A DNA stretch of 64,000 bases. Origin: Anadara kagoshimensis. Its lineage: Eukaryota; Mollusca; Bivalvia; Arcoida; Arcidae. Within the stretch, counting starts at the first letter, position 1; every line of letters begins with the position of its first letter. Below the pieces are notes generated by a model. The model saw nothing but the letters and a program-made list of their open reading frames with translations. It had not been told where the DNA came from and made no database searches. Location of the stretch: positions 6,559,058-6,623,057 of the forward strand of contig CM037870.1 in assembly GCA_021292105.1 (NCBI GenBank), in the 5' to 3' direction. This document shows, one piece after another, positions 1 through 55,227 of the stretch. A program made the translations under genes and the position numbers.

Positions 1-3000
1 ATGAACGACCTATCCCAGCCTTGAGAAAGTAAGCATAATTTATCATTAGTTAATTAAGAATAATATAGAAACAGGGCATGTAAAATTTTCCTTTATTTGT
101 TTAATGTATGTACACATATTTAAATGTTTTTCAAGTGTTGAAATGAACTAGTACTACCCTATTTAAATTTTTAAAAGCAAACCTGCCCAAATGGAATGAA
201 TTTAAGATGTTTAAATATGACAAGTATAGAATTCTTTGATTTGGGGGTTGAAACTAAAACAGACCTTTTAACTGTTGTTTTAATGTTGACTTAAACATGT
301 CATTAAAATGGACATGGAAAATAATTTCTGGAAATTGCCAGGATACCATATTTGTATTAAGGGACCCTCAGAGCCCTTCTGTTTTTCCCTGTGTAAATAT
401 GAGATAGAAAGTCTAAATGTATTTATCTACCAGTACATGTATTTAATTTTTGTTTATTAAGAACATATCTTGTACATTATACAACCTAATATCCAAATAT
501 ATATGAACACCCTCATTGTCTTTATATAGCCAAATTATTTTTTGTATATTGCTTCTAGTTTTAAATTTATAGAAAATTTTATATATTTTATATTTAAATC
601 CATTACTTTTTTTATAAATATTAAGCTTATTAGAACGAACATTTTTTGCATTAGCACTATGTATTTTGCCTATCATTTAGTAAAGATCCTGCCAAATTAG
701 ACTCCCCTCGTACAGTACGAACGCCGTATGATGAACGTCCTTTACCTGTCAACAGGTGAGTTGTGTGTAGACGCCAGATTATTCTACCTTGTATCCTACC
801 TTTTTCAGCACGCTAATAATCCAGTATAATCTCACTGTTTTGCATGTATTAAAAATGCCACATCACTTCACCTTAAACTCCCCTACTGGTAGCACGGATT
901 TGCATGCATTGTAAACACCACATTACTTTACCTAAACACACCCTTTTGATAGCACTGATCATTTGCATGTGTTATAAACACCACATTACTTCACCTTAAA
1001 CACCCTACTTGGAGCACTTATTTGCATGTACTTTAAACCAGATAATTCTGACAGCAGTTTTATTGTAATGCATTTTGCTGTCTAGCCTTTTCTGCTAAAA
1101 TAAGCGACTGTGTATGCAAACAAAAAGTTGGCATGCTGAACTATAACTTAACTTATTCATTAAATGTAAATTAAAATTGCTAAAATAAGTTTGTGCTATT
1201 ATAAAGTGGCTTACTGTATTATAAATGCCACATTATTTCACCTAATACACCCCTACTGGTAGCACTGATTTTCATGTATTATAAACACCAAATTATTTAC
1301 CCCTACTAGTGATTTGGAAGGGAATTTTCACTATGAACCATCTTCATAGATTTTTAGAATAGTAATGGGCCATTCCTTATATGATTCATGGAAGTTTTTA
1401 TCAATTAATGGTCCATCTCTAAAACTTTAACCAAAACATTTTAGCAGCAATTTATTGTAGGGCATTTTGCTGTCTAGCCTTTTCTGCTAAAATAAGTGAC
1501 TGTGAATGCACACAGAAAGTTTGTGCTAAAATAACATTTTTTTATTTTGTAAAGTAAAGTTTCTAAAATAAGTATGTAATAATATAAAGCAGCTTACAGC
1601 ATTACTAGCACCACATCAATTAACCTACCAGTAATATCAAAAGCATTTTCATATACATGTATTATAAAACACTATGTTTAAGTCTGAAAACTTGTATGCT
1701 GAGGTCAGGTTGCTGGTAAATACAAGTTACATGTACATGTACAGGGATTTATGAAAGGCCTATTTAGGGCCGAAGTTAGGCCCCATTCCCAATGGAAAAA
1801 CATTGATTTTTTCCCAAAATGGGCTGAACAAAATTCCCAATTAGAAAATCGTACCAGATACATAGCTGAAGTCTGGCCATAAATGTGGCTGCTTTTCTCA
1901 ATCTTCAATCAACTCAATACACTAAAAGCATCAGATTTAATCATTAATGGCATGAAAAATATGTCAAAGTTTTCCCAAAATGAGCAAAAAGTTGATAGTT
2001 TTTCCCAGTTTTTAGTTTAGGGCCTTTTCCCAAAAGACCCTGATAAATCCCTGATGTATCATAGGTGACACCACATTTGACACTATGCTCATTTCTGAAA
2101 ATATATATGTCAAAAGCCAGGTTATTTTACATCTTATCTGATGCTTATCTCTATATATATTCAGCTGCCATTTCTGCTAATGTTTTACTTATATTCAGGT
2201 TTTGGTATTTTAATGTGCTAGCTCACTACTGGTATATGTATATATCTATATATGTATCATTGGTTTTTTTATATATTCGAAATATTTCTGAAAGGATTTT
2301 TAAAAACATGACAATTAAGTTTAGTTTTAGCTCACCTGTACAAAGTGTAAAATAGCCAATGTCATAAGAAAGGTGATATGAAATTCCATCTTTCTATCAG
2401 TCAGTTCAGACACTTCTTGTCCAAAATAATTTCCAAAATTATGGAGCACTATTTTAAGAAACTTGGTGCAAAGCATCAACATTTGCAACCCAAGTTAGTT
2501 TGTTCTTTTTCCTGGGAGTTATTGACCTTTGAACATAAGTGGAAAATAGAAAATACAAAAAAAAATCTACCGGAGGGAAATCCTTATTCACCAAATTTGC
2601 TTGTTTTCACATGTTACCAGCACAAAATTTTACAATGATCCTTTATCCTTTATTAAGCTCTATATGTTGTTGCACTTTTGGACATGGCTTTAATAAAGAT
2701 ATATTTTCTCTTTGACATAGCATTTTTCAATATTTTATCTCACACAATCTGTCCACTTTTGTACTATCACTAATTTTACATGTATGTATGTATTATGTAT
2801 AAATAACCATGTTTACTTTTGTTTATTTAAGGAATAGTTTTTATTGCAGCATTTTCTTTCCTCACAAATACTATGCACCTTTTCCCCCTGCCTTTTCAAG
2901 AAAGAAGGGGCATTAAATTTGAAATTTGATCCATTTTTCATCTTTCCATCCACCCAGACACTTGTTCAGAGTAATCTCCAAAATCTATGAAGCACTATTT

Positions 3001-9000: not shown

Positions 9001-12000
9001 GGCAGAGTTAGTAGAGATGTTGTATAAAGAACTTGGTATCAAAATAACAGGTAAGTCAGTGTGGTTACTGGAATTTTTTCCAATCAGGTCAGATCATTCC
9101 TTAGCGAGACCAACAAAAGCAATCTTGTATGCATAATCTTGATGCTGGATATTTGTGTGACTTAAGTAAAAGGGGTTAACATTTATATGCTCCTGTTTCT
9201 ACAAATAGACATATTATGGCAAGGTGTTGCTCAGCCTGCTCCTCCAACATTGTTGAAGATATTTTTACTAAACTTGATATACATGATAACCAGGATATGA
9301 CTGTTTATTACCACTTTGGTAAAATACTTACAATCTGATTGGTTAAAATCTTATTTATACTATCCCATATATTTAATTTTCTAAGGCAATACGGTCGCCT
9401 GAACGGGTAATACGGATACCATGTGATCGGGTAATACGGAGCTTCAACCCTGTCGGGTTATGGCCGCCCCCATGGTCCGCTTCAAGTATTGCAGTATATT
9501 TTTAACCTGTTGGTTTTCTAAAAAGTATTAAAAGTAACATACGATTTTTAATTTTATAAATTACAGAATTAAAAATGAGATTCAAAATTCTAGAGTTAAA
9601 AGTTCGTATCTGCGGCTAAAGGGGAACAACTCGCATAGAAACGTCATTTGCAAAATGCAGATAGATCAGTGATGACGATTTAGGGAAATTATATTCTAGC
9701 ATTCACATGAATCCAAATACGCCCACGGGACTGTTAAATAAAGTACATTTTGAATAACGTTTATATTTCTGTCGTCGGGGTGGTGAAAACATTTCTGAAA
9801 TGTCGAAATCTACTTTTTCTGTGGCTACAGATCCCTCTACAGGGGCCAAATTTGTGAAGAAAACTGTAGATGAGTTAACAAAAAATCGTCACGAAAATGA
9901 AAAGGAGAGATACACAGGAATAATGCCTGCTGACAACACGCCAATGTCAATGTGTCCTGTAGCTTCCTACATGTCCGTTTACTCTGCTCGAGAGAAAGGA
10001 ACAACGCTAATATTTTAAAGATTTGAATGACACGGTTAAAAATCAATTAATCATTTACTTACATGAGGCGAGTCGTTGCAAACAATCCTAATTCCGATCT
10101 AGTCCATACATTATAACTCCTTTAATACACCAAAGCGTATTTTGGATGGGTGTTTACAATGGTAAAAATTTTGACAAAATGGCGGTGTCTTTCGTGTGAC
10201 GTAATGATGACGGAAGAATTTTTTTTTGTGCGCAAGGGGTACAATGAAGGGTAGCTCCAGTTTGAAGAGTTATAATTTTTAATAGGATAAATGACATTTT
10301 TTAAAACTTACTTATCTCAGAAATGTAAATTTAATATTTCCGTATTTTCAATTAATTAAAATTTGATAGAAAAGATTAACTTGTTGAGTTGTTCCAATTT
10401 AATTATCTTATACTAATATTTTAAACCACATTACAATAATTCCAGTAAATGTAGCATAAGCTAAAATTTTCAAATGTTGATCGAGATCAGACCAAAGTGG
10501 TAATAAATTCGTTATTCGAGATTTTCCCGGGGTATACGGGATGGTATGACCGTCTTGGGTTTAGTATTTCCTGAGTGCGCCTCAGGAAATACTAAACCCA
10601 AGACGGTCATACCATCCCGTATACCCCGGGAAAATCTCGAATAACTAATAGTATTAGGTGAGGATATCTCTTAAGAGTTGTACCCCTTTGAAATTTTAAT
10701 CATGTTTTTTTGTGATCTTTACCAACAGTTTAATGACAAAAATGTAAACGTGTGTACCTTGCTGCATCTAACTCTCGTTATCTAAACATTATTATATTGC
10801 ATTTCACACTGAACTTATGTTATCATCTATTGCAGTGGTTTAACGACAGATAACATGATGGTGTTTTGTGTGTCTGCTCTTGGTCACAATGCCAGTGAAG
10901 TCAGAAATATCTCGGAGCGGATTATAAAATCCCTGTATAAAGAAGTCGGATCACAAGTCAAAGACTATCTACCTCCTGATGATGACAAAACACGGAAAAT
11001 AACACTTTATCGACAACTGTTTGAATTCTTTGATAAAGTGGACGGAAAACCAAGTAAAAGTGATATAAAGGTAACTATCATTTGATGAGACATTGTTTAA
11101 TACTTCTTATGTTTCTTAACAGATATAAAATCAAAAACAAACATACTAATCCATGTCTGAATCACAATCCAAAAGCAAAGTAAAAACTTTGGAACTGACA
11201 AGTTAGGTTAGACACGTGAACTTCCACCAGAGAAGTGAGGTCAGGTGCTCTGGAAGGTTAAGCACCTCCTGTTTAGCTAGCTACACCTGCGCCATGTCTG
11301 TAATCAAAATTGTGTGAAAGGAACATGGAGTTATGGGACTTTAAATATATCCAGGGCAATCCTGGGCACAGAGACATCAAACTTAACAATAGTGTGATGA
11401 CGGCAAAATATAAGAGAAAATGTCATTTTAGAACATGTAGAAAGGAAATTGATTTTCTTTTTACCAGATTTAAACTACATATATTCATAAGAAAATATTC
11501 ATTTTAGAAAAAAGAATGGGAGATATTCTTAAATGTTGTTGATTGCAATGTGGGTTAAAAAACTTTTAATTTTGCTCATAAAATTATAAAATTTTGAGAA
11601 TTCGTCTTTCTTACATTTATGATAGATAATTACATACATGAACCTGCAAACAAAGCATTTAAAAAAAAAGTTGAAAATTTTATGTCAATTAGAAGAAATA
11701 AATTTACAGCCAAAAAAGCAACAGTCAGTACCACCAAAACATACTTGGCACCAGCCAATACAATAAAGAATGTGAATCAATCAAACAAAAGATTTTGCAC
11801 CACTGATTATAAAAGTTTTTATTTTAAATGCTTCAAAATTTTGCTTAGAGATGGAATAAATCAGAATTTTTATTTTACAGAAACAGAAAAATGAACAAGA
11901 AGCAAAGAAACAGGCAGAAATAGACGCATTACAAAAACAACTACAGACACTGAAAGACATAACTGGTGGAGCTGGTGGTGGCAGTGGTGGTAAAGCGGTA

Positions 12001-14724: not shown

Positions 14725-14758
<34 letters not shown>

Positions 14759-15063: not shown

Positions 15064-15103
<40 letters not shown>

Positions 15104-18100: not shown

Positions 18101-18583
18101 CTGACACCAGTTGTTGCTACAGTTTTTTTCTTCAAGTCAGCATAAAATTTTGAAAAAAATAACCTACTATCTTTAATATATCATATTTTAGTCTTTACAA
18201 TAAATGCTTATTTTTCTATTCTCTTTGTTTCATAACAATATTGATGAATTCAGAAAAATGTGGAATATTTTTTATATTGTAGCTTCAAAATCAGGAACAA
18301 ATCACTGCCCATTATGTCATCAGAACATAGACTCTGGAGAAGAGGGTTGGAAGAAACATTTGATGGGCAAAGATGGATGTAAACAAAACCCTCGGAGATT
18401 GTTAGCTCTTAATAAACCCACAGGTAAGATAACATTCTTAACAAAAAATGCACTGAAGGATTGAAAAAAAAACTGCCTGGTAAAATGACAGAACCTTTAC
18501 CTGACTTTTGTTCAAGGCAGATTCTAATCTGAGAAATTTGTCAGTTTGCTTTCTGAAGTGAAGGCCAGCATTTTTTGTTGTTT

Positions 18584-18614
<31 letters not shown>

Positions 18615-19085: not shown

Positions 19086-19350
19086 AGTCTGATGAAGTAA
19101 ATCTGTTTTAATATTAGAGAAATAAAGTCTGTTTCAACGTTTGAGAATTAAAGGGTGTTAAGATATTGGATAAAATTTAACAGTTTTGGAAAAAATAAGA
19201 TCTGTTTTGTTGTTGGAAAATAAAGATTGTTTAGATATTGGATAAAATTTAAGTTTTGGAAAAAATAAGATCTGTTTTGTTGTTGGAAAATAAAGATTGT
19301 TTAGATATTGGATAAAATTTAACAGTTTTGGAAAAGATAAGATCTGTTTC
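19081..19350 (+). terminator. CEP104 3' UTR with four AATAAA poly(A) signals in tandem repeats
   Basis: AATAAA occurs at 19081-19086 (overlapping the stop codon), 19121-19126, 19219-19224 and 19289-19294. The last two lie in a 70-bp tandem repeat (about 19150-19350; units with GATATTGGATAAAATTTAA and GGAAAATAAAGATTG). The first signal may be too close to the stop to be preferred. The cleavage site cannot be read from sequence. Confidence 0.6.
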
Positions 19351-19965
19351 ATAATTGTATTATAGTCTGTTTTTTCACTGGAGAAATGTTATATACAGAT
19401 GTATATATATGTAAAATATTTCATACTTTGGTAGATTTCTTCATGAGCCACTTGGTGAACATTGATGGAAATTGAGTAGTTTATCATAGGGCATTTGAGG
19501 ATAAACATTCCAATTGCTAGGAGTTAAAAAATTACAGATGTAAAGTGCTAGGGTTTAGCCCATTTTGCTTATAGGAGGTGTATCTGTTAGCATTCTCAAA
19601 CATACATCATATACACGTAGAGCTAGTCGCGGAATACGGTAGTTCAAAAGGGAGAACTTTTACTCAAATTAATGACTGCATTAAAAGTTTGAACTGAAAC
19701 AGTAAATTTATAAGATGTCAGTAAAAGGGAAACTATTGATATAAATATGTGATATCAATTCTGGGTAAGAAAAAAAAATCAAAATTTTCTTTACAATGAT
19801 GTTGTTAATTGTATGTGTATTTGTGAATTTTTGCAAAGTTTACACTATGCACATCAAGAACTTGTATAAATACACAACACATGTGATATTCTGTATGCCA
19901 TAAACATTATAAATATACCACTTTATGAGTGGATTGTATGCAAATATAATACACTGCTGTAGAAG

Positions 19966-33170: not shown

Positions 33171-33202
<32 letters not shown>

Positions 33203-36067: not shown

Positions 36068-36101
<34 letters not shown>

Positions 36102-39100: not shown

Positions 39101-42100
39101 ATCTCTTTTCCAGTGACAGGATAATCAGTTAGCATATTTATTACAGCTTTGTACACGTATATTGCCATGGCAATCCATCACTTTGACAACATGAGTTTAC
39201 CTTTTTCTTTGGTTTAGCTGCTGTTCCTTTACCCGTGGCAGGATAATCAGTAAGTAGAAGTTTCTCTCCTGTGTCTTCACTGTCCTGAGCCTGTACAGCA
39301 TCATCTTTGTCCAGATCCAGTTCCATGGCATCCTGGTCGTCCTCTTCCTCCTCCTCATCCTCATCATCTGATTCATATTCTTCTACTGATTCAGCTAAAA
39401 TAGAATTATTTATTTTTATTTATTTTGTATATACTTCAATTTCATAAATATTATCAAAATTTGCATTTTTGTTATTCTACATGTATACAAATAGACATTT
39501 TGAGTTTTGCAAGTCTCTACTAAAATACAACCCTTTCTACATGTACTTTCTTCAATTTAAGAGATTTTTATTATTTTTAGATTTAGATAAGTTGTAATGA
39601 TAATAATGCATATATGCAATTTCTTCAATAAGAAAATTACTTTGCACTATAATCAATGCCAACTTTCCAGGCAAAAATATTTAACTTTATATTTTTACTT
39701 ATTTCTTACATTAATTAACAAGAGATCACAAACCTCACTAGAAAAACAGGTGTGTTTAAAAACTGTTTTTTTTTTGTCTACATGTGGAATGGCTTCCAAT
39801 GTGGGGGGCCAAACTGTTTTAAACACGACATGACAGGGAATCATAACAACAGTGACCTTTGACTCCTGAACTGTATGTATCATGTGTTTCAGACAAAATA
39901 TTTTTATGTACATGTATTTATTAACTTACTAGAATTAAGTTGTTTAATTATAAATTCTATTTGTCGGTTCATGTCAGGTTGATCATCTTTGATAAAGCAT
40001 CTTAATATTTCTTCCATTCCCTTAAATAGAAATCATGCAATACTGTATGTTTACAATGATTCATAAAACAGTGGTTACAAGAAATATTGAATGATGAACT
40101 TTTTTCCAAAAATCTTTTATGTAACAGATAAAGTGTTAAAATAAGAATGAGAAACTTTCAAACACTAATATCTGCACAGGTGGGATTTGAGCCCAAACAC
40201 TGAGAGTGAATGTGCTCCATATTAAAATAAAGAAATTAAAGTCTTAGCAGTAACATAGAATTTTTTTTACATTATGCATTGATGTGATAAAATAAAAGCC
40301 AAATGACAAACTTTTTCTGACACTAAGATCTGTCAGATTGATGGTGTAAAACAAAAGTATATCAAAGTAAACTCCTCACCATGGCTTTAGCTTCTTCTCG
40401 TATAGATGGTATAGCCAATATACTATATAATGCACCATTTACATATGGACGAATCTGTAACAAATAAGTATATAATAGATATAAGAGAGTCATGTCAGAA
40501 AAACAACACAACTTATCTGCCACGCAACTAGACCCTCAAAAAAACTTTGTCATTGATAAAATTTTAGTCCAATTTTTTTTAAAATGTATACTACAAGATT
40601 CATACTGGAAAATGACATACATGTATGTTCTTTCATACTGTCAACAGTTGAGCTGAAAAAGCATATGTTTTATATATACATTTGAATAAAAGCAAGTTAC
40701 AAGCGAAATGGGATGCCATATCAAAAGTGTCCCCCAAATGAACCCAAACTGGAAAATACATGTTTTCCCAACCATGTGCATGATCAAATACAAATATCTA
40801 AAGGTACATCTACTCCATCCAAAGATTGTTCTGATGTTATACATATCTGTTAAATAGTTTTCAAAAAAAGTGGCAGACAAATGACAGCGGGAGAATATGG
40901 AATAAATACTACCGGTATATGCCCCCTCCCTTTGTTGGTGAGACTAGATAAATAATTCGATCTGAATGCCCATATTTGTGTGAAATTTTTTTTATATCCC
41001 TGTAAAATTTATGACATCATGTCACCTTGCTGTGATCATTAGCATCCAGTCATGTAAAATGACATACACAAACTATTTTGAAGACAGAAATAGAAGTTCT
41101 TTTTTTTTGTCTGTGTTATCACGAATTTGAAATAAACATGTACCTCTTGATTCTCATGTCCTAACAGATCACTTAACACTTTCAATGTCTGATGAGCACT
41201 GTTCACACATCTCTTCTTTCCTGTTAATGATACATTTATGACTTAAAACATTGATCAAAATGTAACATAAGGTTATATAATGGTTAGGTTTCAGACTTTT
41301 AAAATATTATTTATATAATGATTTTGCTAAAATCAAGATATTGATACGCTTATAACAATATTGATATTTTTTTCTTTCCTAATCTTTACAGTACTCTCAG
41401 CGAAATGTAGGGAGGGTTTGTTTTATTGTATCACACCTACCATGGTAAAGGACATCAGTTTTTGTTGTCTCTTCATTAAGGTTTATGTGACTTTCGTTTT
41501 CTAAATGCAAAGTGATCGATGAAAGCACAGTCCCTGCCTATTTTCAAGTCTTAGTTACCGGCAGGTTGTTAAGAGTTCAAACCCACAACTTTCTGCATAT
41601 GGAGCAAGTACTCTACCAGCTGAGCTACTTTAGTGGTTATAAAGGTCAAACTTGTTACCTACCTGATGTTCTAAGACACAAGTTCATTAACAATGCCACA
41701 GAGTACTCTAGTGTATAATCAGACAAGGCATCATTATCCTCCAATACTTTCACCAACCACTCTATAAGTCCAGCATCTATCATGGCACTCTGTAAATTTC
41801 TCCTGTAAAATCAAAACAAAAATTAAACTTTAGAACTGTCTCTTGAGATCCAAATAACCCCATCCAACAATATTTGACCCTGTGACCTCAACCTTGGGCC
41901 TACACACCTAAATGTGGTATGCATCACATACTGTAAACATATTTAATTTCATGTGTACATGTATTTATTTTCGCGGTATTAGAAGTTTAGACATATCCAC
42001 GTAGTTAAATTTTCGCGTTTTTGAAATATGCACTAAAACACCATGAGTAAAATATAATTTTCGCTTGGTATTAATTTTCGCGTAAAACAAGCGATCGTGA

Positions 42101-45100
42101 AATAAGCTAAAATTAGTACACCGCGAAAATAAATATGTTTATAGTAATCAGATGTTAGTATATATTTCTGCAAAGTTTGGTTGAAATTGACATGAATACT
42201 GTGATTTCTATATACCACCTCCTTCAAACTAAGTTTGCAGGGGTCATCAAAATGTGTTGTATAACATCATAAATGACTACAATTCACAATACCATCTTAA
42301 ATAAACTCACCTCAAACTTAGTTTCTGTAAAGCTCCAAGAACCATTTCCCTGGTAATAGATTCCTTTTCTTCACTATGTAAATTATCTAACAGTGACTTA
42401 AACAAGTCTTGATTCTGTGCTAGGTATGTTCTTCCTAGAAATACAGAACCATGCATTTATGCAAGGTTAACTGTTATAGATAAACCAACAGGAAAAAGTG
42501 AACAAGCTCACATATACCCTGCTCAGTGAGAATGGATAGAACAAGGCGCTATGGGAAGTCAAATGATAAATTTGGATATAAAGACATCATACTTAACAAT
42601 ATCAAAGAAAGAAATCAGAAATATGAAAAAAAATTACCATAGTAAAATTGTTTTGTTGAACTGTGTCAACAAAGAAACAAGCACACTTCACAAGTTCTCA
42701 TAAAAAGTTTCACTGATAAAACCAAGCTATTGCTTTCTTTTTATCTTACCTGCACAAAGTGAAGCAAAGGCATTAAATAATCTAGCAGAACTTTGTTTGA
42801 CTTGTTCATCGGGTGATGTTAACAAACTCAGAACAGCAGTCTGGAAATATAGATATACATGTATGAAAGTAATAAACAAAACAATATTGTTCACAACACT
42901 TGTTATTGTGATACTTATGTACAGTAAAAATGTTCCTTTATAACTTTGCCATCTCACTTATGCCACCCTATTTTGTAATCCCAAAATCCATTTCTAGTAT
43001 GTTTTACCATAAGAAGTCGCTTTCAATTTATCACCAAACACCTTTATAATTCCAAAATTTGACCGAACAAATAATGAAAATAAATTAGGAGATACATGTA
43101 ACTGTTTTCTATGTTAAGAGTTCTGAACCTAAAACATGGATTTTAATGTCACAAATTAAGGTCTACCTTGTGACACTTGGGGAGCTTAGTAACCAGTATT
43201 TGGGAAAATTATGGTTTTTTTTAATTTTTTTTCATACAAAATCAACCAAGAAAATAACTGATAACTTACTCTATGTGGTCCTGCTGTAGCACATCCAAGT
43301 AGATCATTATCTCTGTAAGTTGTCATTGTCGAGTCCCTCTGCTGGGGATTGGACTGTGTAAGTCTCTGAAATATTTACAGAACACCACTTATACATGTTT
43401 TACTGTTTAATCATTCTTAACTCACTTATACATGTTTTACTGTTTAATCATTCTTAACTCACTTATACATGTTTTACTGTTTAATCATTCTTAACTCAAA
43501 TAATTCATCATTGCCTTGTAAATTTTATTTGAATTTGTTTTTCATTTTTGCATGAGGGTATATTTAATAAATATGAAACTCATCAAAATTTGATTTTGCC
43601 TCGTAAATGAAGTTCTCCAGTAACCCATGTGATGAATACTGCTTTATGTTTGCAAGGAAAGTTTTTGAAAACAATTACATAGAAAATTGCAGGAATAATG
43701 TAGGTTTTTACAGGAAAATGTTGTCTAATGTGATTTCATGTCCAATGGATATAACTGTTCCAAACAAAAACTAATTTTTCTTTCAAACCTGTGGTTTATT
43801 ATGTTTAACATAAGTTTCTTATTATCAAGACTAGAAAATTTGAAAATCAAAAAAGGCAAGAGATAACCTCAATACAAAATGAAGTTTATTTGTCTTTGAT
43901 AGGACTTAAATTGTAAAATTTTGGAAAAACTATTTTCACAGAAATGTGTAAAATGGCTAAAATCTGTCTTTTTTTACTTTATCAGACAAAATTAAAATAT
44001 TTGAAGCAGTCATACAAATGAAAGTCTTTCCCATTTTTACTATAAGATAGACTCAAAAATTTAAGAACCAAAACATGATCTTACTAACCCATCTGAGAGC
44101 CTGCAGTAGTAGAGCTTGTCGTCTGTGTTCTGCACTGTCTAGATCTTGTTTAATCTTTGGATAATCTATGGCTGGATAGGATTCTGGTTCATGTGTAGCA
44201 TTCCTGTGAAGTAAAGATTAACAAATCATACAGATAGCCAAGTAGTACTATTGTTGACTTTCAAAGTCGAGAGTTATGGGTTTGAATCTCACTCAAGACT
44301 TGGAAATTTTCCAAAATGGTTTTCATTTGTGGGAAGACATAGCCAAGTGGTACTGTCACTGGCTTTCAAAGTCAAGGGTTATAGGTTTGAATCTCACTCG
44401 AAAATTTCCAGAGATGGTTTCCATCTGTGGGTAGACATAGCCAAGTGGTACCTGCTTTCAAAGACAAGGACTGTGGGTCTCAATTTCACTTGATACTTGA
44501 AAATTTCCTGAGACGATTTTCATCTTCTGCCCATACTTGAGTTGTGCTAAAAAGAAGCCTTTCAAACAAAACAATTTTAAAATTGCGCAACTGCATCATC
44601 AAAAAATTGCAAGTACATTGTTAAAATATGTTATCAGTAGTCACAAAATAAATTCAAATCTCTTATATTTTAAGTTAAAATCAATGCATACATATACATT
44701 TACATACAAAATCAAAATGCTTATGTATAAATACATAATACACATTATACTTACTTTTGTGGAGCGATTGACTGGCGTAAAAACTGACTAGCTGTACCTG
44801 GACGTGTAAAATCTACTGACTGCTGCATGTGCTGACTAAATAATCTATGACATATCTCTTGTAGATATTCTGGAGAAATCTGTAAAATGGAAATGTTGGT
44901 CTTTGAGACTTGGGTAAAATACAGAAACAACAAGCAAAGTCGGCGAATAAGGATCCCCTGCCAGTAGGTATTTTTTTGTGATTTTAACTTTGTTCAAAGA
45001 GCGAGGAAAATAAGAAAACCAACTCTGGTTAATGATATGTGCATTTTCTATCAATGTTGATGTTTTGCACCAAATTTCCTAAAATAGTGCCCCATAGTTT

Positions 45101-46733
45101 ATGAGAAATACTATGGACTAGAAATGTGAAGATGGAAGGATGGACTGAAGTTTGAATTTAATACCCTCTACCTTCGGAAGGCTGAGGATAATAACATTTC
45201 AAGTATTTAATTCAAACTGATTTTATGTTTTATTATGATAATTCAAACAACAAAGAGAATCAATGTTAAACACAATGTAGCGGTATTTATCGATTTGGGT
45301 AAATTCACATGGACTTGAATTTAAATGTAAAACTCATGGATCTCTTTTTTCATTATGATCATATTAAATTTAGTGGAGAATTTAAATTAGCCAAGAAAAT
45401 TGCTAAAATTAATACAATTACATTACATGTATATTCATCAGATATATGCATGATATACATATTTTCGTTTAAACAGATGTTTCCAGAAACAATGACACGA
45501 GCCTGTGTGTTTTATTATAAATAACATACTACCGTTTTTCCCTGTATTGTGTTTTCCAGAGCATCCACTAAGTCCGCTGTTATCCCAATTAAATTATGAT
45601 AATCAGCCTACAAAGAAAAAGAAAACAAAATCGGTCTTAAATTTCAGACAACTGAATTGCTCCCCTGTTTGTTTAAAGTACATGATGCAAGTTTAAGTTA
45701 TTTTCAAGTTATTAAAACAATAAAATATTAAATAATTTATAATAATAAATTTCTCTTATTTCAATTTTCATTATCTTAATTTACAGTTATAGTTTATAGT
45801 TACAAAATACATCAGGTTTTAAATTATGCAACTTCCAAGATGTATCCTCGAACTCCATTAAAAATTAACTAATGTAAAATGAAAAGATGAATAAGGCCTG
45901 CCTGTTTACAACATACTTTCAGAGCCTGGAGAAAACCATCATCCTTAGGCAAGGGAAATGTCATGCTTTTGTCTCTCTAAAGTAGGATTAAAACCTATGT
46001 GGTGAGAGACTGAGAGATGGTCTGTAAGCAGGCACATTAGACCACTCTGTCTTCAAGGGTCTCTTTAACAATGGACAATGATGCTTACACCAAGGTCACC
46101 TATGGTATAAGATGTTTAACACTTTGTGCAGGCTAGCCACCACATGATCAAGTCTGCATATATTATAACACATTATCATGCATGCTATGTATTAAGTTAA
46201 CCTTAGGTTGAGGTAGAATTATCTTTTTTTTATTTGTGATTTCATTGTTGGATTTTAAAATATACCCAAAATATTTCTTTAACATATGAAAGGTAAAGGC
46301 TCAACCTCTTGCTGTCTATCTTATATTGACCATAAGTCATAATGACTGGATTAATGTCAAATAATAAGGATCAATACCTGAAAGCCAGTTTATACTTAAA
46401 TCAGGAAATTTAAAACTAAAAAAGTTTCAGCTGTTGCAGATTCTTAAAAGGTAAAATACATTCAAGTTTCCCAGCCAAAGTTGTTATGAAAAATGGTGTC
46501 CAGCAGTATTGTGTGCCATGTAAATGTAAGTACTTTTGAGGACCTGAATCACTATACTTATTGTATGACTAGTGATTTATAAATAAACAGAGTCAAAATC
46601 CAATCATACATATATTTTTTTACTGCAAAACCCTCCCTTTTAACCCCAAAGAAATGTTCTAAATGACAGGTGTAGTTTTGAAAATCAAAATTTGACTGTG
46701 ATTTAAATACTTTTTGAAAATATTAAACAAAAA

Positions 46734-46792
<59 letters not shown>

Positions 46793-49700
46793 ACTATGAC
46801 AAAAACAGTTTCAACTACTAATAAAATTGAAATGAATACAACAGAACATTTATTTCTATGCTGGCAAAACTAAGTAACACATAAACACAATCCTGTTGCC
46901 ATAGCAATGACTTTATTTATTACAACTAGATAGTAGCTTCATTCACAAGAACTGGCAACCAGCTGCTCAATTCTCTTAAATCTATTTCACATGTGATAGT
47001 TTTAGCTAGCTAGACAGGAAGTGCTTACCCTTCCAGAGCACCCAGTCTCACTTCCTTATAGAAGTTCATATTGCTATTTTCAAAGTTTTCACTTTGCTTT
47101 TGAGATTATTATTTACATTTGTAGATATCGACTGGTATGTTTCTGTGTTTGATATATTTTTAAAATATCATGAACTGGCAACCATATGACCAATTCTCTG
47201 TAGTGCAACAAACTTTAACCTTTAAGGTTATTCTACCTATCAAAGTAAGTCATATAACATTATAAACGGTCTGTGATATCAACTGGAAATTAACATTAAG
47301 TCAGCAGAATGCTACTCTATCCTTTGATAACTTTTTGGACAGACACTGCTATTGATTTCATTTGATATTAGGTTTCTTGAACTATTGCATATGTTTAACA
47401 TATTGTTCTAAATGATATGGTTTGATTAAAAATACAATGATGATAGCTAATAGGTTTTCAAACAACAAGTACCAAATAAATGCTGTGTACCAGTTATGGG
47501 GGAAGAATACCACACAGCATTCTGAAATAGCTTTTAAATGACATAGCAAGCTGGGGTTGAACCTTTGACCTTTCACATCTATAGGACATACTAGCTATCC
47601 ACAAATTTAAAATCATTAGTAGCCAAATCTCCAAACTGTGTGAAAATATAGTCTTTTTTAAAGTATTTTTTTTTTATAAATTTGGTAATACAGGAACTGA
47701 AACATTAGGTATCACAGATCTGTGCTATACTTAAAATCTAAAAGATGTCCTAAATTTTGAAATGACACAGAAATAGGAATCCACCTTAATTGATAATTCA
47801 AAATTCACAGGAGTTTGATAAAATACATATTTATATAAATTGTGCATCAATGAAAGAAATATCGAGATAATTCTACAACAACACATATTTTATAAATGTT
47901 TTTTTCTAGGGTGAGCTAACATACATTTTTGGCTTGTAACTAAAAACAATGTCCAATATATAATAAAATTATCAACAAATGAAAATCAACAATCACTATC
48001 ATAATCATAATGTATTCAAGACACATAATCTTAACTAAAATGTGTAAAACATGTGAAGCAACACATTAACCAACCAAATCTCCGTATCTGGAAAAAATTG
48101 TAGTATAAAAGCTGGACTAAAGTCTGAAATTTTATTTGCCTCTGAGTAAAGACTAAAAAAGTCTGAAATCAGACAGGATTATCTTTTGTTTAAAAGGCAT
48201 GAATTGCCTCATTTCTTGTAAAGGGTAGACTAACTTAGTTTGTAATACTCCTTAAAATGTGTAACAGTTAAAAAATATTCAACTACGAATAAACTAATTT
48301 GGCAAATAAATAGACTGCAATGCAAAAATTTTAGACTGTTGCTAGGTTTCCACAAATTTAAATTGTCAGTAGCCAAATTTCCAAAATTTTAAAAAATATT
48401 TTTTTTCTCTCAAATTTGCTAAAATAGTTTTACTTTTTTTTATAAAATTGCTCAGAAGACAGTGTCCAATGGTGATTTTGGCTAACAAGACTTGAAACAT
48501 TATAGACTGTACATTTCTAAGGATTTTAGATACGAAAGTTCTTGAATTTAAAATATTATGATAGTGATAACAAATAAACAAATAATAAAACTTATTTTTT
48601 TACTCACCAGAAAAGAAACTGGGACAAATGAATTACAAAATACTGATTAGTTCATCAAACAATCATTTCAGTTTTTGTTATCAATAAACACTTCCATAAA
48701 TAAATGTTAGTGACAGTTGTTTCATAATCACAAAATATAAAACTTGTACAACAGATACTTATGGAAGAGTTTTTTACAAGCGTGTAAGACATGCATGCCA
48801 ACATGTATTTGGGAAGTGGGTCATATGAAATGAGCCTTATTAGGTCATATCCCCTCCATCATTACAAAGGGATATAACTTAAATAAAAGGTTTATGCATA
48901 TCATTTCATAACATGCTGTGCAGGACGTCCACAATTTAATTACTGCAGAAAATTCTGAAGAAATAGTTAACAAAGTTATTCAATTAATTAATGTAGCACC
49001 AGTTTCAATTTTTTTTAAAAATCAACTAAATGGTTTCTTCTTATGAATATGATACAAAACTTCCAATAATAACAATGATTCTAGAATATTCATCAATCAA
49101 TATGTTTACCATATACCGGTAAACAGTAACTAAAGTCGTCTTATTAAGTGAGACTACTCTCTCATTAGCAGCCAAATTTTCAAAAATTGTGAAAATATAA
49201 TCCTTTTTAAAGAAATTTTCCTCAAACTTGGTAAAATAAGATATTTTTTCAATCAATTTTTTCACAAATGGTTATTTTGGGCTACCAGGAATGGAAACAG
49301 TGTTTATCAAGAGAGATTACTGTCATAATTTTTGTGCGAAACATTTGCTCCAGTTCTATGCAGTAGTTAAATTGTGGTGGCTGGATAGTATGTTTTGTGT
49401 GTAAGTACCTGGACTCTATTGTGTCTTTTAATATAGGACATGGTTTTACGTTCAGAATCTACTAACTGTTGCTGTAGTCGGTGTATGTGTTGGTATTGTT
49501 CTGGTACACAAACAAAACAAAATAATCATTTACATACATTCTTATAACATGTTGTACACATAGAATCTTAATGACTGGCCTCAATAAAAAAAGATGTGAA
49601 GTTTCATTCATCACAGTCATGAAATCCTAAAGTTTACTCACATTTACATGTAGTTAGATTAAACTGTAGTTAGGTATAACATAAGTTGGTGAAATCAAGC

Positions 49701-52700
49701 ACCTGTTGAAACATGCCACCTGTGGCCATACTTTTAGACCTTGACATTGGGTCAGAGGTCAACAAGATGGATAACATGTAGTACATATTGATTTTCTATA
49801 TCAAATAGTTTATTTATGCCACAAGAAGTAAATCCCATTAAGCATTCAAAAAATAAAGACTAAAATTAAGTTTTTGATAAAAAGGCAATACAAACTTGAT
49901 CCTTATTGCAATAATTACCAAATGCAATCTATATGTACAGACTATCCTTAAAATATAATCTTGACTATGTATAAATAAATGTTCATGTTGTTTATTATTC
50001 ATGCTATGTTGTGATCCGAGCTCCACAACAGTTTGAAGCTATATACAGATTCATGGTTTACAAAAAGCAATCTTTTTTCCATACGTTAAAATAAGCAAAA
50101 TTATTCTCAACTTGAGATTAAAACACCATTTCCCTGTACTTATTGTGGTTTTTTTCTTTTCTCATACATTGAAATTATCAAAATATTCTCGACTTGAGAT
50201 TAAAACATTTCACTGTACTTATTGTTCATTAAATTTGACAATTATAAAGAGATGACTATTATAATGTACATACCATTTTCATCACCATCTCTGTTACCTC
50301 TCTGCACATAGTGTTAAGGTAAATAATTATCTCGTAACAACTCAAAACTAAGTGATCATTTTTAGAATAATGTTACCAGGGCCTCAGATAAACCCCTTAA
50401 CTAATCATCCAGACACGAGTTGTTGAAACAGCCAAGATGAAAAAAGAAAATCTGGCTATAACAAAACTAAATTTAGACTATAGGTCCTTCATGATGTGAA
50501 GGCAGTGTTTATAAACATGGATGAATCCATATTATATAATAATAATAATAGTGTATAACTATGTATACATTCATATCCACCTACCCACCCCCACCCCATG
50601 GTCTATTTGTTCCTTCCACCGTAAGATTAAATTTGAGATGTTGTAAATTTTGCCATTAGATCGCAGATCGTGAACGATCTATACCATAAGACTTGTTTTC
50701 AATAAGATGGTTTTGTATGTAAAAGTATAATTATAGACATTTCTTGCAAGAAAAATACCCCATCCGGAATTAGGCCTTGTGACCTTTGACCTTTGACCTA
50801 TGGTTCAAGTATATAAAAGGATACATATAAATCAAACAGTTTGGGTTGTGGTGTTGATTTTAATGTCAAAGTCAGAAACTTCTCCAAACGGATTTCTAAA
50901 TCTTTAAACCAGACATCCTGAAAAACAAAATTAAAAATATCATTCACATGTTACTATAACAACCTGATGCTGATGCTCTAGGCATGAAAATAAATTCTCT
51001 TACCCTTCATGTAGACCAAATGAAAATGCAGACTTAGCAGTTTTATTGTTTTCATATCTTGTTTTGAGATTCATTTAAAATGAAATATAGTTATTTGCAG
51101 CCCTATATAAAAAGGAAAAGAAGCAACAAATATGAAAAAAGCAAGGAAATAAATCAAAACAAATACATGTACCGTATATTTCCATAGATACGTCGCAACT
51201 TTTTCACAAAATTTTAATATTTTAAAATGCAATGCGACTTAACTAGCCGACATTAAAGTATTTTGATAATCTGTCTCGAATTTTCAAGACATTTTAGAAG
51301 ATCGACAAACCGGAAGTTAAAGTAATTTTCTAGTTGAAAGTAAATTTTGCTCTTTATTGTATTTTTGTTATTATTATTATATGTGATACATTTTTTATTA
51401 TTAAATTTGACCAATAAAGTCTTTGAAATAAACAAATAATTAATTAATTAATTAAGGTAAGTTTGAGTCTCATTTTTAAGTTGTCACGTGTAACAGAATA
51501 GCCGTCGGCAAAGAAGTAAATACCTGGTCACCTGTAATTAACTTTAAATAACCAAGTCCTCCCGGTAACACCTCGCGTGTGTCTTGTTTGTTTAATGATT
51601 GAAGCCAATCCCGATAACTTATCCATTGATATAATCGTCCATGTTTACCGGTACCCATGTTTACATATTGAAGAAACGCCGCCATTACAAACACTAATTA
51701 TATATTCCTATGTCAGAGGTCATACGGCACTTTGGTATCTGTCGGCTTGAGTAAAAAGTGTCAGGATTTGATAATCGCTGATTGGGATATTAGTAAAATT
51801 TATTAAAATTTAATTTGCAATTCCAACGACATGTTTAGATTTTAAACGCAACAAAAAATGAATACAAATTATTGTTTCACAAAAGTTCAAACAACCGGAG
51901 GTCGTCCTAGTTATCGACCAATACTCTCGAATGCAAAACCACATGTCATTCTGAACAATATAAAATGGCGATATTTACCCCCTGGTAAGCAATAGATCAT
52001 CAACTTTAACATAATATCGACGATCCAGTATTATAAAATCTGAAACATAAGTCTAATAACGCTATAAGCGACCCTCTTGTTTAAACAAATCATGCAATAC
52101 ATATCACAACCTCTGCGCATGATCAAACTTTGACTTCCTTTGTCGGTGACAACAACATGTGAATTAACCGATCTCATGATCGGGAGCCAAAAAGTACATG
52201 TTTTATTCAAGTAATGTACATCGTTTGTATCCATACATGTAAAAAATAATATCTACATACATGTTTAATTTACACAAGCTATTCAAACGATATTTATTAA
52301 GAAGAAAAATAATAAATAACACCGGTAAAAACTTTTGTTTCTTTTTTCATGGAATTGAAAATCAATGGCTCTTGCTGAGCAAATCTCGAATTTTCTCTTG
52401 CAAATTTTTGGCTGCGACGTATGTAGACGACCTTTCGAAAATACTGGGATTGCTGGCCTGGGGTGGGGGTGCGACGTATCTACTGGGGCGACGTATATAC
52501 GGAAATATATGGCATATATATACCACTGACTCTGGACAAACATTCCATATTATGAAAAACTGATGTCCAGTAGTGTGGTTAATGTATTTTTACAATCAAT
52601 GGTCCCAAAAACAAAATCATTTAAAAGGTTCAATTGCCTATTGTTCCAAACAAAGGACAAACAACCCTTTTTTAATATGTGTTATCCATGAAAATTATAT

Positions 52701-55227
52701 GTAAACACAAAACAACAGCCTTTATGGTCAGGTACAAAAAGGTATTGTATGATAAGTGACTTTTGACCTTTATGACTACTTACAGTAAACAATTCTTTAT
52801 ATGACGGATGACCTTTAGGGTTAGGTACGAAAGGTAAGGCATAGTACGGTAAGAATTCTGTGGTCTGACTAAGTGTAGCACCTCTTGTCTCTAAATATTT
52901 CTTAAAGTCGTTCATACATCTATCCATTTCTCTCTGAACAAATTATAAACACAACATAAGTCATAATCAAATTTGCATCAAAATGAAACATTAAATTATT
53001 GTAAACATATAAAGAATTAAAATTAATAATATACTGTACAATATACTGATAAAATGTATAGTATATTGGTATATATTATATATTACTTGTTATACCAGTG
53101 TTTTACAGCACCAGATGGACGTTTTGGAATACAATTCCTCATCAGTAGTGCCTGGACCAAAATTGTGAAACAATTTTTTTTTGAAGGGGTTGAATTAATA
53201 TCTAAAGGACCAAAATATATTTGAGCATTGCTAAAAATACAATGTATGCATTTCATCAGCCAAAGCTCTAAATAATTTGAATAATGCAAAAAGTATATGC
53301 TTGTAACTAAGGGAGATAATTTTAATTTCCATAAAAAGAATTCTAAAAATTCAAAGAAAAATTACAACAAATTTTTATCTAAGGTCAAATTTAAATATCT
53401 AACACTAATGAAAATCTATAACTATATCTTGAAGGAAAAGGAGATTAAATTATTTTCATGAGAAAGCTCCAATGACCAACTCAGAAAACATTTCCATGTA
53501 TATATTTACAATGTACATGCATCTACTTTTGGTAAAAAGTACAGCAAGAGTGAAGTTTTATAAATAATTACCTGTCCTTTAGCAAACTTTATAGGATATA
53601 TAGCAAAGTAAATGTTCAGATAAAATTCTAATTTCTTAGATACAGCGTCTCCATCTTTAACAGTCGGTGATAAATTGTCGTTCCAAAGTTTGAAATATTT
53701 GTCTCTTCTCCCCTTGTGAAACATCTGCATCATCTCATTCTAAAACAAACAAAATTGACTTAATAAATATGAGTGGAGTGCTTAATGGATTTTATGTCCA
53801 GTCAAGATTCTTTAATTTATATGGAGGCAGTCAGTTTAGGGATGGTAGAGGAAATCAGAGTGCCTGGAGCATGTGAGCTGACTAACTTTCTCAAACTAGG
53901 GTATCTCCAGATTGGGATTCAAACCCAGGTAACAAGAGGCATTGTGGTTTGTAAGTGTGTGCTTTAGACCTCTAAAACATCAAGCCCCCCCCTCCCCCGC
54001 ATGAAGTAAGTGCTAAAAGCAGGTCACTCACTCTTTATGATGTTAAAACATGTGCATTGTATCATACTGGAATACAAATGAACAAATAACTATGGTAACT
54101 GATGATATATGATTTATATAAATAAATTACTCTTTCTTTATTTGTTAATTTTTGATCAAAGTTTTTCTTGGTTTCTGTGCAAGACTTGACAGAGAATTTG
54201 TTAGGCCTGTATAGAGATGGACATTTTTTAATGAATCTTGATTTGAAATTTTGTATTGCTATTGGAGATTACTTTACCTGTAGAGCTAGAATCTTTTGAT
54301 TGGATCTTGACTTGTTATTTTGTGTTGCTACTGGTTTGGCTTTTTGTTCACATTCTTTCTGGTACGTTGTCAAAGTTCTTTCAAATCCAGCGAAGTCCAA
54401 ATACTGAAACAAAGAATAGAAATTTAATGTGTTCGTGCATTCGCCTTGTATGTATTTTGGTGCAATAAATAAAGGGAAATTTCATATTTTCACCAATTGG
54501 ATTCACCTCATTATGTGTTTAATATGAATTATGGTGTACATGTCAATGTGTAGGCAAATATTATTAAAACTGATTACGCCTCAAAATCCTAGAATAATGT
54601 TTGATGGACAATGATCTTCTCATGCGATTCCATATCAGTGCCACATGAATGTGATGGTGTATCACATGGTATATCTGGTAAACCCCATTACTTAAGCTGA
54701 AGAATACCACTTCCTTTATGGTGAAAAACCCAGTGAGTTATCATAATTATTAGGATCCATACTAGAACTACTGGCAGCAATCATTCTGTGGTATATTATA
54801 ATGAACATGCTAAAATTTAGGCAAATGTAGAATGGTACAACACCATATTTGAAAAAAGAAAAGAAAAGGCACAGTTAAACCAATCCCCTAGTATTCTTAT
54901 TTCAACAAAGTCTTATTGACCATGTCTGATAAAAGTTTTAGACAAGGGTTGAATCAGAATAAGAATTTGGAACACAGCAAAACCAATGTGCCCAATGAAG
55001 TATGACAGGTGACCTTGCCTACTTTCATTGATGAAAAATCATCAGTTAAAAAAGTCAAACATACATTTTCATAGACGTATGAAGCAAATTTACGATAATG
55101 TTCAGAAATAGCTTTCATAGATGGAAAATGGGTGCTATTGAAAATATAATTATGTATTTACCTCCTGAACAATAGCATTTAGTTCTCCTTCAAAGGATAC
55201 AACGGATAGTGACCCAGACATTGTCAT
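27496..55227 (-). CDS. ARMC9: ARMC9, LisH and armadillo-repeat ciliary protein (complete coding region, 855 aa)
   Basis: Exons in transcript order: 55162-55227, 54278-54403, 53572-53739, 52784-52933, 50825-50917, 50274-50301, 49409-49500, 45533-45607, 44755-44879, 44089-44203, 43270-43365, 42750-42840, 42311-42434, 41663-41802, 41144-41220, 40380-40454, 39930-40020, 39201-39394, 38480-38580, 37334-37464, 36889-36952, 36116-36324, 27496-27632. The total is 2568 nt, with the frame kept at all 22 junctions. Domains: LisH (about residues 14-50), conserved helical region (65-200), coiled coil (205-265), armadillo repeats (about 320-580), an acidic stretch (about 580-615) and a disordered Ser/Pro/Gln tail. 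Diagnostic stretches include [20 protein letters not shown] and [15 protein letters not shown]9 acts at the basal body and ciliary tip and is a Joubert-syndrome gene (JBTS30). The start is ATG at 55227, with an in-frame TAA directly upstream; a second ATG lies at 55221. Confidence 0.96.
27775..28010 (+). mobile_element. SINE-like element
   Basis: A B-box-like GGTTCAATTCCC lies at about 27835. The body (GGGCACTCCAGTTTCCTCCC) and the 3' segment GACTGGGTGTAAAACTCTAT resemble 18600-18690 and 56975-57045. The 3' segment also resembles the end of the SINE at 57435-57780. Confidence 0.5.
29110..29222. mobile_element. MITE copy, TACAGTC family
   Basis: TACAATCAAACCTGCCTAAA at the left end is inverse to TTTATAGACAGGTCTGACAGTA at the right end (shown here in parts: TTTATAGACAGG and TCTGACAGTA). 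The internal GGCCACCTTTTCTGG matches the family member at 5512-5695 in opposite orientation. Confidence 0.65.
29260..29325. repeat. CA dinucleotide microsatellite
   Basis: This is a near-pure (CA)n run of about 33 units with a few CG and AA interruptions, in the last ARMC9 intron. It explains a spurious His/Thr open frame. Confidence 0.95.
31007..31219. mobile_element. MITE with TACTGTAAACRTATTTA ends, copy 1
   Basis: The left end TACTGTAAACGTATTTAATT is inverse to AAATAAATATGTTTACAGTA at the right end. The interior is symmetric around TTCGCG/CGCGAA motifs. A second copy lies at 41929-42146. The TA at both ends is consistent with a TA target duplication (Tc1/mariner-type). Confidence 0.8.
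31570..31848 (+). repeat. Dispersed repeat ending in a GC-rich hairpin
   Basis: It ends with TATACCCCCACTTTTTAAGC followed by GGGGGTATA, a hairpin (31818-31846), preceded by repeated ACGGACGGACAC. ACCCCCGCT near 31621 pairs with the end too. It resembles the hairpin family at 17508 and 44938, so a Helitron-like origin is possible but unproven. Confidence 0.5.
32196..33960. repeat. 1.8-kb ATC/GAT trinucleotide satellite with strand switches
   Basis: From 32196 to about 32535 the + strand is ATGATG-rich. From 32670 it is CATCAT-rich, with an internal return to GATGAT at about 33295-33358. Interspersed islands (CAGCAGCAGCAGAACTCATG, GTCACATCATCATC, CTCATGTCACC) recur every 60-100 bp, so it is a higher-order repeat rather than a pure microsatellite. 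Long open frames of Ile, His or Ser here are artefacts. Confidence 0.9.
35398..35625 (+). other. Unrecognised 75-codon open frame antisense within the ARMC9 intron
   Basis: An ATG-started frame encodes a hydrophobic N-terminus ([16 protein letters not shown]) and then a basic/aromatic body ending FEDSLLNVK. Its composition is less AT-driven than surrounding frames and it includes several CG dinucleotides. I do not recognise the family. There is no clear promoter, splice site or homologue. It may be a relic exon or chance. Confidence 0.2.
36062..36102. repeat. (TC)n(TG)n microsatellite next to the ARMC9 exon 22 donor
   Basis: On the transcribed minus strand this reads (CA)n then (GA)n, beginning about 13 bases inside the intron after the donor GTGAGT of exon 22. 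CA-rich intronic runs near donors are known hnRNP L binding sites in vertebrates. Confidence 0.85.
36116..38580 (-). CDS. ARMC9: ARMC9 exons 19-22: Ser/Pro-rich tail
   Basis: Exons 38480-38580, 37334-37464, 36889-36952 and 36116-36324 encode [13 protein letters not shown] (matching the human EPLQRPVTP segment) and then low-complexity Ser/Pro/Arg sequence ([30 protein letters not shown]). NLSRPPS is repeated in tandem. The tail is predicted to be disordered; the TPEV and RTP sites could be proline-directed kinase targets, which is inference. Confidence 0.9.
36863..36876. promoter_or_regulatory. Palindromic X-box-like motif (RFX site) in an ARMC9 intron
   Basis: GTTACCGTGGTAAC fits the X-box consensus GTNRCC-N(0-3)-RGYAAC on both strands. 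RFX factors drive ciliary genes through such sites. It lies 13 bases downstream of the exon 21 donor, not at a known promoter, so function is speculative. Confidence 0.4.
37527..38271. repeat. 92-bp tandem repeat, ~8 copies, nearly identical
   Basis: Units start GGCTACTACAGCCAGATAAA and end ATTTGTAAAGTCAAATATT. Spacing is exactly 92 bases (for example 37623 to 37715). Only a handful of substitutions separate units. The array fills most of the ARMC9 intron 37465-38479. Confidence 0.95.
38908..39136 (-). pseudogene. Decayed duplicate of the ARMC9 exon 18 end, interrupted by a SINE fragment
   Basis: On the minus strand CTAACTGATTATCCTGTCAC repeats exon 18 CTTACTGATTATCCTGCCAC. ATGTTGTCAAAG and ATATACAAAGCTGTAAT repeat the following intron. 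The donor is lost (no GTAAAC at the corresponding place). A SINE fragment (about 38985-39062, with GATTCAAATCTCG and CCAAGACTTGAAAATAGG) lies inside the copy. Confidence 0.65.
39201..39394 (-). CDS. ARMC9: ARMC9 exon 18: acidic linker
   Basis: This exon encodes a run of Asp/Glu ([20 protein letters not shown]), then [12 protein letters not shown], then [14 protein letters not shown] and a terminal KPKKK. Human ARMC9 has an equivalent acidic stretch in the same place. The downstream intron contains a decayed duplicate of the 3' end of this exon (38908-39136). Confidence 0.92.
39930..44203 (-). CDS. ARMC9: ARMC9 exons 10-17: armadillo-type repeat region
   Basis: Eight exons encode the helical repeat region. 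Readable anchors are [96 protein letters not shown] and [12 protein letters not shown]. Lengths and phases match a full-length domain with no internal stop. Exon boundaries fall at all three phases. Confidence 0.95.
41500..41640 (-). mobile_element. tRNA-like SINE head in an ARMC9 intron
   Basis: On the minus strand an A box TAGCTCAGCTGGTAGAG is followed by GGTTTGAACTC (B box) and the SINE body CTAAGACTTGAAAATAGGCA. It is the 5' part of the same family as 57435-57780, truncated at its 3' end. An open frame over it is incidental. Confidence 0.65.
41929..42146. mobile_element. MITE with TACTGTAAACRTATTTA ends, copy 2
   Basis: Same termini and internal TTTTCGCG/CGCGAAAA symmetry as 31007-31219. 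It lies in the ARMC9 intron between exons 13 and 14. Confidence 0.8.
43385..43500. repeat. 39-bp tandem triplicate
   Basis: Three near-identical copies of ACTTATACATGTTTTACTGT plus TTAATCATTCTTAACTC lie immediately upstream (on the minus strand) of the ARMC9 exon 11 acceptor. Confidence 0.9.
44230..44510 (+). repeat. Three tandem tRNA-like SINE heads
   Basis: ATAGCCAAGTGGTAC (A-box-like) followed by GGCTTTCAAAGTCAAGGG and GGTTTGAATCTCACTC (B-box-like) occurs three times at about 80-110-bp spacing, the last copy degenerate. It lies in an ARMC9 intron, antisense to the gene. Confidence 0.65.
44938..45191 (+). repeat. Hairpin-ended dispersed repeat copy (opposite orientation)
   Basis: GGCGAATAAGGATCCCCTGCC, GATATGTGCATTTTCTATC and TTGCACCAAATTTCC mirror 17508-17765 in reverse complement. 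It ends with TACCCTCTACCTTC/GAAGGCTGAGG, an imperfect hairpin. It is antisense to ARMC9. Confidence 0.6.
45533..49500 (-). CDS. ARMC9: ARMC9 exons 7-8: coiled coil
   Basis: Exons 49409-49500 and 45533-45607 encode [19 protein letters not shown], then KRHNRVQ, then [19 protein letters not shown], a continuous amphipathic helix. The human ARMC9 counterpart reads closely (ADYHNLIG is shared). The intron between them is 3.8 kb. It carries an AAAT microsatellite (46732-46795), a dispersed-repeat copy (46985-47115) and otherwise AT-rich sequence with nothing recognised. Confidence 0.9.
46732..46795. repeat. (AAAT)n microsatellite
   Basis: About 16 units of AAAT/TAAA in the 3.8-kb ARMC9 intron. Similar runs lie at 61291-61327 and, as TTTA, near 61560-61585. 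Confidence 0.95.
50050..50230. repeat. ~107-bp tandem duplicate
   Basis: AATTATTCTCAACTTGAGAT, then TAAAACA, then CTGTACTTATTG occurs twice (from about 50098 and about 50177), with similar upstream TTTTTTCCATACGTT/CTCATACATTG segments. It lies in an ARMC9 intron. Confidence 0.7.
50274..50301 (-). CDS. ARMC9: ARMC9 28-nt micro-exon
   Basis: A 28-base exon encodes RGNRDGDEN plus one base, bounded by GTGCAG and GTATGT. It enters in phase 0 and leaves in phase 1. The next exon (49409-49500) needs that one base, so skipping would break the frame unless other exons change too. It sits between the conserved N-terminal region and the coiled coil. Confidence 0.7.
51171..52509. mobile_element. Candidate 1.3-kb TIR element containing an exon-like segment
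   Basis: The left end CCGTATATTTCCATAGATAC followed by GTCGC (from 51173) is an imperfect inverse of GCGACGTATATACGG then AAATATATGG at 52491-52515. GCGACGTAT motifs recur near the right end (52412, 52470). The interior is richer in CpG than its surroundings and contains the open frame at 51524-51685. Two unrelated solo ends are an alternative explanation. Confidence 0.45.
51524..51685 (-). CDS. Possible alternative first exon of ARMC9, or captured gene fragment
   Basis: On the minus strand ATGGCGGCG opens a 54-codon frame ([20 protein letters not shown], then [20 protein letters not shown], then [14 protein letters not shown]) ending at CAG/GTATTT. Phase 0 would splice in frame into ARMC9 exon 5 (50825-50917). 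A second donor (ACAG/GTGACC) would be out of frame. The composition looks coding. I do not recognise the sequence. It lies in ARMC9 intron 4 inside a candidate TIR element, so it may be an alternative promoter or a transposon-captured exon. Confidence 0.4.
52784..53739 (-). CDS. ARMC9: ARMC9 exons 3-4: conserved N-terminal helical region
   Basis: Exon 3 (53572-53739) encodes [15 protein letters not shown] followed by [15 protein letters not shown]. Exon 4 (52784-52933) encodes [19 protein letters not shown] followed by [18 protein letters not shown]. These segments are the most conserved part of the ARMC9 family and fix the identification. Confidence 0.95.
54278..55227 (-). CDS. ARMC9: ARMC9 exons 1-2: start and LisH motif
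   Basis: Exon 1 encodes [22 protein letters not shown]; exon 2 continues with [18 protein letters not shown]. Together they give the LisH pattern (L-x2-IV-x-EYL-x4-FE-x-TL-x3-x-x-E), a dimerisation motif. An acceptor (TTTTTCAG) lies a few bases upstream of the first ATG, so the 5' UTR probably has an upstream non-coding exon that was not located. Confidence 0.9.

Follow-up and report, generated by a model that had tools for sequence, protein, structure and literature searches.

A tail-to-tail pair of CEP104 and ARMC9

The window analyzed here is a stretch of 64,000 bases (6,559,058-6,623,057) of contig C14, which is 72.7 Mb long in an assembly of 1.115 Gb and 36 contigs. CEP104 (+, -8890 to 19085; negative positions lie upstream of the window) and ARMC9 (-, 55227 to 27496) were found tail to tail on this contig (Table 1). 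Both 3' ends given in an earlier note on this DNA were confirmed by direct reading of the stop codons (19083-19085 for CEP104, 27496-27498 for ARMC9), and its gene identities also stood, with Pfam and PDB in agreement for CEP104 and Pfam for ARMC9. The adjacency is real in this genome. Nothing was found to favor an assembly error that joined two unlinked stretches, and such an error is highly improbable given 0 N across the 344 kb surrounding the pair and the presence on C14 of other markers of both regions (see below). Among the literature matches listed, no title or abstract opening reported CEP104 and ARMC9 as neighbors.

Table 1 Coordinates of genes, exons and repeats in the window
Feature	Position	Strand	Evidence or remarks
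CEP104, middle and 3' part	1..19085	+	tblastn, spliced alignment, Pfam PF21039, PDB 5lpi/5lph/5jo8
CEP104 exon, end of TOG domain	10834..11070	+	44% identity to human sequence; 5lph_A
CEP104 zinc-finger exons (n = 3)	16273..18423	+	Pfam, PDB, spliced alignment, genome profile search
Tail-to-tail intergenic gap, 8410 bases	19086..27495	.	minisatellites, fold-back repeats; no protein-coding gene recognized
41-base tandem array, 14 copies	22931..23503	.	
Fold-back element	24088..24696	.	217-base arms, 71% complementary
ARMC9	27496..55227	-	start ATG at 55227, stop 27496-27498; Pfam PF23138, PF21050
ARMC9 LisH exon	54278..54403	-	aligned to human sequence only

Sequences of human CEP104 and ARMC9 were used as tblastn queries against the window and 40 kb on each side, followed by spliced alignment, which recovered exons collinear with human CEP104 over the whole span on the + strand. 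CEP104 is incomplete within the window, a correction to the initial finding: about one third of its span lies upstream, where 13 exons of the spliced model were placed (several of them weakly aligned), and one more exon straddles the window start. The zinc finger was recognized as CEP104_ZnF (PF21039) with an E-value of 1.4e-38 (132 bits vs. a cut-off of 27.4), and the C14 locus was the sole genomic match of this family among 18 candidates scored. The terminal segment of the TOG domain, in a partial query, scored slightly below the Pfam cut-off (PF21040, 23.6 vs. 24.3 bits) and matched PDB entries 5lph at 2e-15 and 5jo8 at 8e-13, which together with 5lpi are the CEP104 chains matched by this gene. 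A zinc finger and a TOG domain, the latter by its PDB matches, are thus both present in the gene. The spliced model contains one asterisk (stop sign) in a weakly aligned linker near human residue ~190.

ARMC9 matched the Pfam families CTLH_Armc9 (PF23138, 2.5e-41) and ARMC9_ARM (PF21050, 3.4e-39), both above cut-off, and had no PDB relative at E 0.001. The gene combines LisH, CTLH-like and ARM-repeat regions, the LisH being placed by alignment to the human sequence only. A pseudogene was considered and rejected, as the single asterisk in the ARMC9 model came from the script refusing a splice acceptor preceded by A, where the sequence has a clean phase-0 junction. The ARMC9 CTLH family also produced weaker matches at C1:14298289-14300442 (31.1 and 30.7 bits vs. 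a cut-off of 27), perhaps from another CTLH-domain gene. Two further minisatellites were noted, one in an ARMC9 intron (37534-38269, a 92-base unit repeated 8 times with 98% matches) and one upstream of the gene (57930-58896, a 145-base unit repeated 6.7 times with 94% matches). Also upstream, the one match to an RNA family, a weak tRNA-like one at 57442-57506 (Rfam, 32.1 bits vs. a gathering threshold of 29) was not called by ARAGORN and is perhaps a tRNA-derived SINE.

The interval between the stop codons

The earlier note described only repeats between the two genes; no protein-coding gene was recognized there, and a small one may be present. Thirty-four open reading frames of at least 50 aa lie wholly inside the gap, and Pfam was searched with 30 of them. 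Not included were two frames from the repeats immediately downstream of CEP104, two that overlap the minisatellite of 25.8-26.0 kb, and three additional ones that straddle the gap edges. A hidden gene was rejected as a candidate on this basis, with 0 of the 30 scanned frames reaching the Pfam cut-off; one sub-threshold match was to a phage holin (E 0.0072, 16.8 vs. 25.4 bits).

Codon usage gave a similar picture. When the scan was trained on both genes, no gap segment scored above 6, and when it was trained on either gene alone, two gap segments did so, compared to 211 or 169 in 344 kb. Lowering the threshold to 4 produced eight gap segments with either training set, compared to 872 and 727 in 344 kb. 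By codon usage, the gap is without an excess of coding-like segments. Sensitivity was assessed with 19 of the 30 CEP104 and 19 of the 26 ARMC9 model exons, leaving out weakly aligned or very short ones: when trained on the other gene, the scan recovered 6/19 ARMC9 and 9/19 CEP104 exons at threshold 6, and 14/19 and 13/19, respectively, at threshold 4. Because the scan is this weak, a small or fast-evolving gene may lie in the gap. Among the repeats, the flank of the 41-base array recurs in diverged form and direct orientation at 19969-20048, and a unit of the array lies inverted at 20170-20202, as if the array had expanded within a mobile element bearing inverted termini.

Gene neighbors and linkage on C14

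Upstream of CEP104 on the - strand, DFFB was identified from a CIDE-N exon (-14108..-14013; PF02017, 33.2 vs. 23.5 bits) and a DFF40 exon (-23925..-23653; PF09230, 100.8 vs. 25 bits) with a match to PDB 1v0d, and so carries both the CIDE-N and the DFF40 nuclease domains expected of this gene. CEP104 and DFFB are head to head, with starts ~5.1 kb apart (-14108 to -8890), and sharing of a promoter is only putative. A virtual wallaby map interpolated from human markers gives the order TP73, CCDC27, LRRC47, KIAA0562, DFFB (PMC3170641), where KIAA0562 is another name for CEP104 (centrosomal protein 104 kDa; PMC3891868). The mammalian pair thus resembles the one described here in that the two genes are adjacent; the map lists them side by side, and the divergent arrangement is that of the present locus. 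As CEP104 stands beside DFFB both here and in the printed mammalian map, the neighbor shared with mammals is DFFB, an apoptotic nuclease gene, and not ARMC9. We take the orientation in mammals to be divergent as well, and CEP104-DFFB is likely an old divergent gene pair.

Farther out than DFFB, DDI1/DDI2-like exons were found at -35058..-30294 on the + strand; DDI2 lies at human 1p36. A search for LRRC47 via PF03483 was uninformative, since its single match was an intronless frame on contig C22. This frame (C22:718355-718786) is 711 aa long, matches the B3_4 domain, is PheT-like by our reading and looks bacterial, and C22 may be a symbiont or a contaminant. Between the DFFB exons, on the same strand, lies a peptide (-21557 to -21432) with a putative resemblance to a mariner-type transposase. 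Past ARMC9, the 240 kb that follow the window were scanned with a procedure that misses many exons, and an XPG-like piece (87 kb, below Pfam cut-offs), a DUF842 exon (128 kb, presumably FAM136A-like), and an SH2 exon and a further exon (154 and 162 kb, PTPN11-like by our reading) were found. With the same procedure, and its many missed exons, no 2q37 neighbor of ARMC9 was recognized in these 240 kb.

For linkage at the scale of chromosomes, eight marker families were searched in this genome, three from human 1p36 and five from human 2q37.1. All three 1p36 markers (p53/p73, Rer1 and DNAJC11) were on C14, as were two of the five 2q37.1 markers (PDE6D and COPS7), and the other three (Mo25/CAB39, ATG16 and PSMD1) were on C13. 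Within the PDE6D family, the C14 match was PDE6D-like and a C10 match UNC119-like by reading of residues. C14 constitutes 6.5% of the assembly, and as a rough guide the binomial tail is 5.6e-5 for five of eight markers and 0.037 for the two of five alone. PDE6D, CAB39, PSMD1, RER1, DNAJC11 and p53 were chosen before any results (CAMTA, via CG-1, was on the same list and left out); ATG16 joined the set at a later point, and COPS7 only once CAB39 and ATG16 had turned out to map to C13. In human, RER1 and DNAJC11, like DDI2, lie at 1p36, ATG16L1 lies at 2q37, and CEP104 is on chromosome 1. The p53, COPS7, Mo25 and ATG16 families are presumably each co-orthologous to more than one human gene, which makes them weaker markers. 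Mo25 was present twice on C13 (55.90 and 57.05 Mb) and DNAJC11 twice on C14 (47.96 and 49.82 Mb), each with near-equal scores exon by exon, and these doubled copies may be recent segmental duplications or uncollapsed haplotypes.

Genes from both mammalian home regions are therefore present on C14, and linkage of CEP104 and ARMC9 is by itself expected from macrosynteny. As in the bilaterian ancestral linkage groups, genes of two mammalian segments share a chromosome in a distantly related animal; unlike those groups, the pattern here is known from this one invertebrate and from eight marker families only. The position of ARMC9 is the less certain part. PMC3420870 gives the mouse order as Cab39, Itm2c, Gpr55, Spata3, Psmd1, Htr2b, Armc9, B3gnt7, Ncl, Nmur1, Ptma, Pde6d, Cops7b (Rik/LOC entries omitted), in which Psmd1 is next to Armc9 save for Htr2b, itself located within the Psmd1 interval, and one human 2q36.3-q37.1 deletion contains ARMC9, PDE6D, PSMD1 and NCL according to PMC7261772. 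In the printed order, mammalian Armc9 sits at the boundary between C13-mapping and C14-mapping genes, with its nearest tested neighbor, Psmd1, on the C13 side. With three of the five 2q37.1 markers on C13, including this nearest one, the ancestral group of ARMC9 is uncertain. The location of PSMD1, CAB39 and ATG16 on C13, and the closeness of Psmd1 to Armc9 in the mouse, would fit a translocation in this lineage, by which ARMC9 moved from the chromosome ancestral to C13 to a site beside CEP104; we consider this unlikely, as C14 carries PDE6D and COPS7, whose mouse counterparts lie on the opposite side of Armc9.

The ciliary module and the origin of the adjacency

Membership of both proteins in one ciliary tip module, as the earlier note had it, agrees with statements in PMC12170345 and PMC9280682. 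In the former, the module was reconstituted, with ARMC9 tied in via TOGARAM1, CSPP1 and CCDC66; the latter assigns ARMC9 and TOGARAM1 to a module that they share with CSPP1 and CEP104. According to PMC12170345 (2025), a direct interaction between ARMC9 and CEP104 has not been described, and a weak co-precipitation from previous work did not find confirmation. Judged by their domains, both genes described here encode members of this CEP104/CSPP1/TOGARAM1/ARMC9/CCDC66 module, which is a network of proteins, and any relevance of gene order to it is only conjectural here.

Shared control was considered at the level of promoters and regulatory sites. CEP104 and ARMC9 are tail to tail and 8.4 kb apart, and so have no promoter in common. 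RFX X-box-like sites, searched by consensus, were not enriched around the two gene starts or within the gap, with 1, 0, 0 and 0 hits in the four stretches covered compared to 1.0, 0.2, 0.6 and 1.3 expected.

These observations bear on the functional or ancestral cluster that the earlier note had raised. Under that proposal, CEP104 and ARMC9 were early bilaterian neighbors, kept together by shared chromatin or ciliated-cell co-expression and broken up in vertebrates. The tail-to-tail arrangement with no recognized gene between, the presence on C14 of genes from both mammalian home regions and the module membership in print (PMC12170345, PMC9280682) are all compatible with it. However, the neighbor common to mammals is DFFB, the arrangement provides no common promoter, X-box-like sites are not in excess, and PMC12170345 states that no direct interaction is described, the weak co-precipitation being unconfirmed. 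Nothing here lends positive support to a functional cluster, which may nonetheless exist; as an ancestral animal feature we regard it as quite unlikely. Still less likely, in our estimate, is the more far-reaching version in which the adjacency is old, common to many invertebrates, selected as a chromatin domain of ciliary-tip genes and lost when the vertebrate 1p36 and 2q37 regions split. Recurrence of the adjacency in different phyla would make it a rare animal case of selection on the linkage of partner genes.

Chance, one of the options in the earlier note, is favored here: one ancestral linkage group combined with local shuffling of gene order probably explains the adjacency. As ordinary unrelated genes, CEP104 and ARMC9 would have shared one ancestral chromosome, as we infer from the markers; CEP104 would have kept its old head-to-head neighbor DFFB, and local shuffling would have brought ARMC9 to the 3' side of CEP104, with the mammalian near-neighbors of ARMC9, PDE6D and COPS7B, also represented on this chromosome. 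Most likely each gene is driven by a separate promoter, one at either end of the block, and as in vertebrates the two proteins would function within the ciliary tip module. The finding would then be one more likely case of macrosynteny together with an old CEP104-DFFB pair, and it cautions that a single adjacency is poor ground for inferring function.

The weight of coincidence was estimated by simple arithmetic, assuming 30,000 genes and sets of 40 Joubert and 600 ciliary genes. Two given genes are adjacent with a probability of ~7e-5, or ~1e-3 if both are on C14; against the shuffling explanation, therefore, adjacency of this particular pair on one chromosome is still about one in a thousand, and the two genes may have become neighbors earlier than assumed. 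The expected number of adjacent pairs is ~0.05 among the 40 Joubert genes and ~12 among the 600 ciliary genes, and a whole-genome scan for any telling pair should turn up some.
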